From Gammaproteobacteria bacterium (GTDB taxonomy: Bacteria; Pseudomonadota; Gammaproteobacteria; Ga0077536): 64,000 bases of DNA. The stretch covers positions 62,001-126,000 of the forward strand of contig JACPPA010000019.1 of assembly GCA_016191285.1 (NCBI GenBank), in the 5' to 3' direction. The number at the start of each line of letters is the position of its first letter. The stretch's first letter is position 1. The position numbers were made by a program, and so were the translations under genes. Positions 12,597 to 14,465 of this stretch are shown in pieces. Under the pieces are notes generated by a model. It was not told the origin of the DNA. It worked only from the letters and a program-made list of their open reading frames with translations, and ran no database searches.

Positions 12597-12940
12597 GGCT
12601 TGGTGGTGGATTTAAGCGCGATCAAAGCGTCGCCTTGACCACCAAGTCAAGCCGGCCGTTTCAAGGATTCAAAACCATTGTCACTAGAAGAGTCACCGGA
12701 CGATCGAAAAATGGTGCTCATTAACGTAGTCACCGAGATCAGGGAGACGTTGCTCGAACAGACGCCGATTAACCAAATCTTCGATTGGTGATCGAGGCGT
12801 TTATCGCATCATCGAGTTCCGTCATGGAACAAGGATCGCTCGCCTTCGGCCAGCACCGTTGAGCGCCGACGTAAACCCCGATTTAGTGCGCCGCTGCTAT
12901 ACTGCCGGGACTTTCCGTGCGGTATGCGGTCTTCTCGCTC
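12597..12940. other. Intergenic region between ratA and smpB
   Basis: No gene I can firmly support. A TATACT box at 12898-12903 lies 38 bases before the smpB ATG and is a candidate -10, but the -35 position is poor. A short open frame runs from 12639 to a stop at about 12788 and could encode a 26-37 residue peptide from an internal ATG (12711) or TTG (12678). It has no recognisable similarity or ribosome site. Confidence 0.3.
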
Positions 12941-13420
12941 ATGAACAGCGCCAACAAAAAATCGTCCGTCTCGGACAGCTCGATTGCACAAAATAAGAAG
13001 GCATATCACGATTATTTTATTGAGCAGCGTTTTGAAGCGGGCTTAGTCCTTGAAGGCTGGGAAGTTAAGAGTCTGCGTGCGGGGAAAGTACAAATTCGCG
13101 ACTCTTATGTTTTATTAAAAAATGGCGAGGCGTTCTTATTCGGTTCGTTAATCAACCCGCTGCCCTCGGCTTCAACTCACATCACCACGGACGCCCAACG
13201 CACCCGCAAGCTACTGCTCCACAGTATCGAAATCGACCGTCTCATTGGGGCGATTGAGCGTAAAGGATATACCGCCGTCGCGCTTGCGCTGTATTGGAAA
13301 AAGGGCCGCGCCAAGTGCGAAATTGGACTCGCCAAAGGCAAGAAACAACACGACAAACGCGAGACTGAAAAAGAGCGCGACTGGCAACGCGATAAGTTAC
13401 GAATTCTTAAAAATCGCTAG
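12941..13420 (+). CDS. smpB: SsrA-binding protein SmpB
   Basis: A 159-residue tmRNA-binding protein that carries tmRNA to stalled ribosomes. Conserved elements are [39 protein letters not shown] and the basic C-terminal tail rich in Lys/Arg ([19 protein letters not shown]). Start chosen at ATG 12941 (MNSANKKSS); eight further codons upstream are open but not conserved. It ends 84 bases before ssrA, its functional partner, with a terminator between them. Confidence 0.96.
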
Positions 13421-13504: not shown

Positions 13505-14139
13505 GGGGGCGACTTGGTTTCGACGTGGGTCGCGAAACCGAAGGGGCATGTCGAGGAGCAGTGACCTCGTAAATCCATCTGCAATCTATTAGTTGCCAAC
13601 GACGACAACTACGCACTCGCTGCTTAAAACCCAGTAGGGTGCCGTCCGACTGAAGCCGTGCTGGTGCGTTCAGATTTCGGGCGTCATATCTCACCGGATC
13701 GCGTAGCGGCTCGCCCGGGGCCAAAGCGCTAAATCCATACGGGCTCGCTGTGCGTCTTCCCTGCCTGTCGGGTAGCGTATGGTTAAAACAGTAGACAGGA
13801 TACACATGTAGAACCGACGGCGGAGGACTTGCGGACGCGGGTTCGATCATAGGGTCGCACCGATCTGTAAAGATCGGGAGCAAACGGAGCTCACATCGGT
13901 GAAACCTAACCCGTTGGATTGGAACGGTAAGGCAACGTCGAGGGGTAAGTAGAAGGCTAACTTCAGGCTTGCCCTGTAGAGACTCATAGCGCCGCTGATG
14001 CCCGGAATGGCACGAGCGGTAACTAGGATTCGCTTGGATACTACGAGCGGATAATACGCTCCGCATCCCAACGCCGGGATGAAGGCATAGTCCAGCCCAA
14101 ACCGAAAGGTTTGGAGAAGCTGTCCCGCCGCCTCCACCA
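13505..14139 (+). ncRNA. ssrA: tmRNA (ssrA), split by a group I intron in the T-loop
   Basis: tmRNA rescues stalled ribosomes. The 5' end GGGGGCG (13505-13511) pairs with CGCCTCC (14129-14135), followed by ACCA at 14136-14139. The resume codon GCC at 13595 opens the tag ANDDNYALAA, ending at TAA 13625-13627. The T stem GCGGG (13837-13841) and the first six loop bases TTCGAT end at 13847, where homology breaks; it resumes at 14123 with T plus CCCGC and the acceptor strand. Joining 13505-13847 to 14123-14139 gives a 360-nt RNA with a perfect seven-base T-loop (TTCGATT) and T stem, close to the 363 nt of E. coli tmRNA. smpB is immediately upstream. Confidence 0.95.
13848..14122 (+). ncRNA. Group I self-splicing intron (275 nt, no ORF) inside tmRNA
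   Basis: Intron boundaries follow group I rules: the 5' exon ends in U (13847) and the intron ends in G (14122). P1 forms between exon GGTTCGAT (13840-13847) and intron GTCGCACC (13854-13861), with one mismatch and U-G at the splice site. Other helices seen in canonical order are P2 (13861-13876, GTAA loop), P3 (CATCGG 13894-13899 with CTGATG 13995-14000), P5 (CCGTT 13911 with AACGG 13923), P7 (GACT 13981-13984 with AGTC 14089-14092), P8 (CATCCC 14064 with GGGATG 14076) and P9 (CCAAACC-GAAA-GGTTTGG, 14097-14114). No reading frame for a homing endonuclease lies inside. Subgroup was not assigned. Confidence 0.9.
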
Positions 14140-14145
14140 ATCATG

Positions 14146-14175
14146 ATCCACCCCGCCCAACGCGGCGGGGTGGAT
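14146..14175 (+). terminator. Strong hairpin after ssrA
   Basis: A perfect 12-bp stem (ATCCACCCCGCC and its complement) with a 6-base loop begins 6 bases after the tmRNA CCA end. No T-run follows. It is likely a terminator or a 3' processing stop for the tmRNA precursor. Confidence 0.6.
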
Positions 14176-14428
14176 GGCCTTCGGCGTCACAGTATTAAAC
14201 GCTCCAAGATGAAAACGCTAGTAAGTTGGCGGAACACGTGTATGCAAACCGTGATTCTCAACGAATCCTGGATCATGGAAACGCTCGCCTAGCGCGATGA
14301 AGGCGGCCTAACTTCCATGCTCAATCTCCTGAGATACCCCAAACTCGCGGAGTATGTTGAACACAAATGAGCGACGCTGGTCCCGAAACCTATGTGCACT
14401 ACGCGGAGTTAGCGTTTCCCATTAGTAA
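14176..14428. other. Intergenic stretch between ssrA and the hsp20 genes
   Basis: I see no supported gene, RNA or repeat here. Short open frames have no coding character and no ribosome site. Confidence 0.4.
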
Positions 14429-14456
14429 GCGGCGGCCGCAGATCCCCGGCCGCCGC
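14429..14456 (-). terminator. Hairpin downstream of the hsp20 pair
   Basis: A 9-bp GC stem (GCGGCGGCC and its complement) with a 10-base loop just beyond the second hsp20 stop codon. The position fits the end of the transcript; a T-tract is lacking. Confidence 0.45.
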
Positions 14457-14465
14457 ATGAGGGCA

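Follow-up and report, generated by a model that had tools for sequence, protein, structure and literature searches.

The window is the whole 64,000-nucleotide stretch of gammaproteobacterial DNA that was analyzed. On its forward strand, which carries all the window features described here, smpB (12917 to 13420) encodes the tmRNA partner SmpB (NCBIfam NF003843, 216.4 bits against a cut-off of 130) and lies directly upstream of the tmRNA gene ssrA (13505 to 14139). We found that ssrA is interrupted by 275 nt between bases 6 and 7 of the T-loop, the insertion site that defines a position-7 tmRNA intron (PMC11915505). The 343-nt 5′ exon (13505 to 13847), delimited with Rfam RF00023 and by alignment to the ssrA of intronless congeners, contains the tRNA-like 5′ part, the tag reading frame, the pseudoknots, the 5′ half of the T stem, and the T-loop bases TTCGAT. 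The 3′ exon (14123 to 14139) supplies the last T-loop base, the 3′ halves of the T and acceptor stems, and ACCA. Its length of 17 nt, already given in an earlier note on this DNA, is borne out by intronless relatives, where the same 17 nt come immediately after the 5′ exon.

To place the boundaries, we relied on empty sites. When the window ssrA was aligned by blastn to the genes of three intronless congeners (G001, G002, and G005; loci L121, L122, and L123), gene positions 1 to 343 and 619 to 635 were contiguous in the target, with 88.7 to 93.3% identity across the 343 nt and 100% identity in the last 17. Thus, the insert is exactly 13848 to 14122, and the earlier note had placed both gene and insert correctly to the base. 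The Rfam tmRNA model RF00023 matched from 13513 (162 bits, E 2e-65); in the unspliced window the match lacked the 3′ half of the T arm and the acceptor. ARAGORN found no tmRNA in the window or in the unspliced gene. Joining 13847 to 14123 gave a 360-nt sequence that ARAGORN recognized as a complete tmRNA with the tag ANDDNYALAA, whose frame with its stop occupies gene positions 91 to 123 of the spliced sequence (13595 to 13627). Read from the sequence, the acceptor stem is 7 bp (GGGGGCG/CGCCTCC) with a G3-U70 pair, the T stem is 5 bp, and the end is ACCA. A tmRNA that alanyl-tRNA synthetase charges is expected to have a G3-U70 pair. The gene has the features of the tmRNA class: a tRNA-like T arm and acceptor with G3-U70, a tag frame, and a pseudoknot domain. 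ARAGORN and the empty sites also uphold the claim that the gene is split after T-loop base 6 and that removal of the insert restores the T-loop, both stems, ACCA, and a 360-nt tmRNA.

A promoter scan found no consensus promoter for ssrA. A GC-rich hairpin (CCACCCCGCC...GGCGGGGTGG, 14146 to 14172) lies directly 3′ of the gene and is common to the window and its congener G003. Beyond it the two diverge, at about the place where the endonuclease genes of relatives, described below, begin.

The insert has a conserved group I structure

We proposed 66 base pairs from the sequence, in P1, P2, P3, P4, P5, P6, P6a, P7, P7.1, P7.2, P8, and P9, and evaluated them in alignments of 12 homologues of the same subfamily and of 22 homologues from two subfamilies. 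Among the 12, 94.9% of cells were paired and 27 of the 66 pairs had changed on both sides; the shuffled expectation was 13.4, and none of 500 shuffles reached 27. When the partners were offset by one to three columns, pairing in this alignment fell to 34 to 45%. Among the 22, 91.9% of cells were paired, and 35/66 pairs (29.9 in shuffles) and 280 cells (108.6 in shuffles) were doubly changed.

The individual helices follow group I order. In P1, exon bases CGAU (13844 to 13847) pair with GUCG (13854 to 13857), which includes a splice-site U-G pair that is invariant in 22/22 homologues. All six pairs of P2 (13860 to 13865 with 13872 to 13877) had changed on both sides while remaining 100% paired, and in P3 (13885 to 13890 with 14058 to 14063) four of six had done so at 97.7% pairing (22 homologues for each). 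P4 (13896 to 13901 with 13936 to 13941) was 99.2% paired in the same 22. P5 lies within it (13905 to 13915 with 13923 to 13932) and has conserved outer pairs and a variable, poorly aligned inner part (62%). P6 (13942 to 13949 with 13968 to 13975) and P6a (13952 to 13955 with 13961 to 13964) were placed with both alignments. P7, the guanosine-site helix (13981 to 13986 with 14088 to 14092), had five of five pairs invariant in 22 homologues. P7.1 (13992 to 13995 with 14016 to 14019) and P7.2 (14029 to 14033 with 14047 to 14051), which together span 13992 to 14051, were both 100% paired in the 12 homologues, with 3/4 and 4/5 pairs changed on both sides. P8 (14064 to 14069 with 14076 to 14081) was 91.7% paired in the 12, and P9 (14097 to 14103 with 14108 to 14114), capped by a GAAA loop, was 98.7% paired in the 22 with 5/7 pairs changed on both sides. 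Only the inner P5 and part of P8 were weak. P10 appears short by eye, about 2 bp.

The Rfam group I model RF00028 matched 13838 to 14114 with E 0.002. The group I match expected in the earlier note was found, but at 24.3 bits it fell under the curated cut-off of 50; the intron of one relative reached 36.2 bits. The Rfam gathering score is a detection threshold and not a biological feature, and structure and covariation decide the group I class instead. The insert has a conserved P3-P9 core with P7, a splice-site U-G pair, and a terminal G (U13847 at position −1, G14122 at the end). Empty sites, RF00028, and covariation agree on a 275-nt group I intron (13848 to 14122). We found no LAGLIDADG match inside it, and 275 nt is too short for an internal endonuclease frame; the other introns of the family, at 250 to 348 nt, are likewise too short. 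These results sustain what had been read from the letters alone: an ORF-less group I intron with U at the 5′ splice site, a terminal G, a P1 formed with the exon, and P3, P7, P8, and P9 in place. P7.1 and P7.2 had gone unmentioned. As a separate observation, the introns of L150 (G337) and L154 (G117), which belong to different families, carry a REP-like palindrome (CCCTCTCCCGCTTGCGGGAGAGGG) in the P7.2 loop.

Splicing and ribosome rescue in the host

We conclude that the ssrA insert is very probably a self-splicing group I intron, because of its structure, the exact empty sites, and the self-splicing published for a Clostridium tmRNA intron (cited in PMC2729099). In the primary transcript, P1 would form between exon CGAU and the intron guide GUCG, and a guanosine bound in P7 would attack after U13847. 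The freed 5′ exon would then attack after the terminal G at 14122, giving the joined 360-nt pre-tmRNA. Once joined, the T arm and acceptor stem could fold and alanine charging would become possible.

The insert might instead remain unspliced: its removal as an intervening segment would leave a tmRNA in two pieces, much like a permuted one. Otherwise, the gene might be dead. A match of the Rfam model tmRNA_permuted at the locus would fit the former; however, it is weak (32.5 bits, cut-off 47), lies on the wrong region, and has similar counterparts in intronless relatives. The pieces stand in the standard order, not a permuted one; the group I architecture of the insert is conserved; and the exons, tag, and smpB are intact. 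We dropped the two-piece or permuted tmRNA because the match was weak and off target, and we regard the unspliced readings as a whole as highly improbable.

We also considered a regulatory role, with the intron acting as a switch that makes ribosome rescue respond to GTP or magnesium. Guanosine is used in group I splicing, and tmRNA charging requires the restored T arm; both are established points in favor of such a switch. However, intronless sister species get by without the intron, its presence is patchy, and the intron alignments showed no additional conserved domain for ligand binding. A regulatory role is thus very unlikely, and the dependence of rescue on RNA folding or GTP level that the earlier note raised is speculative.

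The earlier description of tmRNA as the only essential rescue RNA is overstated: the host genome has a single ssrA, but it also encodes an ArfB homologue of 137 aa (NF006718, 170.4 bits, cut-off 100), which offers another rescue route; no ArfA match was found in the genome. Therefore, tmRNA is not the host's sole ribosome-rescue route, and, judging from its gene content, ribosome rescue need not rest entirely on splicing.

The intron is patchily distributed at one site

We searched 369 evenly drawn Gammaproteobacteria with a model of the 3′ part of the intron including the ssrA 3′ exon. The intron was present in 21 of them, patchily, always at the identical site and accompanied by the 3′ exon of ssrA. 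A tree of 68 ssrA exons required at least 14 changes of intron state (gains or losses), 5 of which were forced by starred branches. Within the genus of the window, two species have the intron (the window and G003, with introns 88% identical) and three lack it, and the exon of G003 is nearest to that of an intronless species (96.1%). No second group I intron was found in the host genome, and no intron copies were found on plasmids or phages.

Two genomes of one genus, G080 and G220, bear on how the intron is acquired. Their exons are 92.5% identical, whereas their introns are 65% identical and belong to two different subfamilies, each being 82 to 83% identical to introns from other families. 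This comparison points to independent acquisition of the two introns. Loss also occurs. In G035, of the same family as the window (L145, minus strand, about 1850 to 1150), a decayed intron, together with a 3′ exon of its own, lies about 77 nt beyond an intact ssrA that has no intron; it is the fossil of a gene replacement that took the intron out. Among the family's intronless ssrA genes, some (L133 to L136; G011, G019, G018, and G010) have C in place of U at T-loop base 6; this would abolish the U-G splice-site pair and could confer intron resistance.

A LAGLIDADG endonuclease gene adjoins ssrA in relatives

Scanning the flanks of ssrA revealed same-strand LAGLIDADG frames on its 3′ side, nearly confined to intron-bearing loci. 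In a genome-wide search of the 369 Gammaproteobacteria, a LAGLIDADG protein was found in 17 genomes, in all 17 adjoining ssrA (in G070 the contig ends within the gene). Fifteen of these 17 have the intron; the two without it, G049 and G115, have decayed genes. Conversely, 15 of the 21 intron genomes in the census carry the endonuclease gene beside ssrA. The association gave a Fisher p of 4e-20 when shared descent is ignored; a phylogeny-aware pair test had just 4 independent pairs on starred branches, which is too few, and none of them was opposite in direction. A further family of 20 genomes, three of them also in the census, contained five intron carriers, four with an endonuclease or its remnant, and one decayed endonuclease without an intron. 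A phylum-wide search found the endonuclease in 0/398 genomes, a draw that had no positive control and shows little. No endonuclease relatives were confirmed in viral contigs.

The gene starts 49 to 166 nt past the CCA end of ssrA (one incomplete contig could not be placed), outside the intron, usually behind a terminator-like hairpin and with an ATG of its own. Its product, of about 145 aa, has one LAGLIDADG motif, reaches the Pfam cut-offs for LAGLIDADG_1 and LAGLIDADG_3, and gives weak but significant PDB matches to I-MsoI and I-CreI. Truncations or frameshifts affect several copies. The endonuclease tree compared with the intron subfamilies gave a signal too weak to discriminate (AU p 0.06), and a palindromic target in the T arm, modest at 6/11 positions, was set aside.

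In the window, the corresponding region (14140 to 14465) has no recognizable endonuclease or remnant: the endonucleases of four relatives gave a best tblastn E of 0.09 downstream of ssrA, which is chance. The entire host genome was likewise without a match.

Some loci show further rearrangement. In L146 (G220) and L168 (G080), the T-loop and 3′ end occur again, uninterrupted (GGGTTCGATTCCCGCCGCCTCCACCA), beyond the endonuclease gene, about 490 to 545 nt past the 3′ end of ssrA; this second copy is like the attachment-site scar of an integrated island. In G049 (L192 and L193), an 8.4-kb stretch lies between direct repeats composed of the ssrA 3′ end and a decayed endonuclease gene. This arrangement suggests an island that integrated at ssrA and duplicated both.

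Collaborative homing as a proposed explanation for the intron and endonuclease

Because an ORF-less intron is linked to a free-standing endonuclease gene beside ssrA, we propose collaborative homing on bacterial chromosomes. We lean toward a reading in which the ssrA intron and the separate LAGLIDADG gene form a two-part mobile element whose parts are gained and lost separately, with the window at an orphan-intron stage. The intron family would move among Gammaproteobacteria at one site, the ssrA T-loop. The endonuclease would most likely cut intronless ssrA near the T-loop, the intron would protect the donor, and repair would copy intron and endonuclease gene together. The linked gene is present in relatives and absent from the window, which would represent a late stage that kept the intron and lost an endonuclease whose former presence is suggested by those relatives. 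The endonuclease activity, the cut site in ssrA, and the past endonuclease in the window are all predictions.

The same data could reflect vertical inheritance without homing. Scattered presence would then result from repeated loss, and the neighboring endonuclease genes would be unrelated selfish genes sharing a hotspot. Intron identity to the window does track exon identity (88 versus 92.5% for G003, 79 versus 84.6% for G020), plain descent followed by losses accounts equally well for G003, a congener that lacks the endonuclease, and the decayed intron of G035 shows that loss happens. The 3′ ends of ssrA are integration hotspots, and we found scars in G008, G035, and G049. However, vertical inheritance leaves unexplained why G080 and G220 carry introns of different subfamilies within one genus, and why 17/17 endonuclease genes lie beside ssrA, 15 of them beside an intron. 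The same linkage recurred in the further family sample, in 4/5 intron genomes. We consider descent without homing unlikely.

If collaborative homing is correct, an endonuclease encoded just after ssrA would explain how the ORF-less introns of the window's family reach new hosts. To our knowledge, collaborative homing has so far been known from phages; it would gain a bacterial chromosomal example that is directly testable with short DNA substrates. This wider picture of intron and endonuclease could matter more than the window's intron alone. According to a 2025 survey (PMC11915505), only about 4% of tmRNA introns have an internal endonuclease gene, which leaves their spread across many phyla unexplained.

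Comparison with known systems

The window intron is one more case of a known class. The earlier note held that a few tmRNA introns had been reported and that this one is unusual. The first statement is outdated, and as a kind the intron is not unusual: in the survey, intron-form tmRNAs number 883 unique sequences across 21 phyla, most of them interrupted at T-loop position 7 (PMC11915505). Those genes resemble the window's in T-loop position 7, the −1 U, the terminal G, and the P7.1 region (Williams 2002; PMC11915505), and the window intron, at 275 nt, is similar in length to the survey mean of 293 bp. Its host differs from the survey systems in being an uncultured gammaproteobacterium. In the survey, 847 introns lack an internal endonuclease gene and 36/883 have one, most in the P7.1/P7.2 region; in the founding set, these lie in P7.1 or after P9 (PMC11915505). 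The main text places endonuclease genes inside introns only, whereas in the window's family they are located beyond the gene and not in the intron; the window itself has none. Within the literature searched, LAGLIDADG and ssrA were paired only in that main text and in one chloroplast genome paper. Given the internal genes of the survey main text and the scarcity of this pairing, an endonuclease gene outside the intron, after ssrA, seems to be undescribed.

The Clostridium tmRNA intron, reported in PMC2729099 as earlier shown to self-splice, has the same gene layout, with a 5′ exon of 338 nt, an intron of 287 nt, and a 3′ exon of 24 nt in the construct. It comes from a different phylum, and the likeness drawn here is one of layout.

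The relatives' endonucleases are like the homodimeric I-CreI and I-MsoI in their single LAGLIDADG motif, their length of about 145 aa, and their weak but significant match. I-CreI and I-MsoI are encoded within rRNA introns of algal chloroplasts, and differ in this from the relatives' genes, which lie outside the intron. In collaborative homing as described in phages, the endonuclease cleaves the allele that lacks the intron, the donor is shielded by its intron, and repair copies both intron and endonuclease gene (PMC6083498, PMC3984707). The psbA intron of cyanophage S-PM2 with F-CphI is similar in arrangement, pairing an ORF-less group I intron of a conserved gene with a linked free-standing endonuclease gene (PMC6083498, PMC3984707). 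That system is biochemically shown, belongs to a phage, and uses another endonuclease family, whereas the ssrA case is inferred, lies on bacterial chromosomes, and would use a single-motif LAGLIDADG enzyme.
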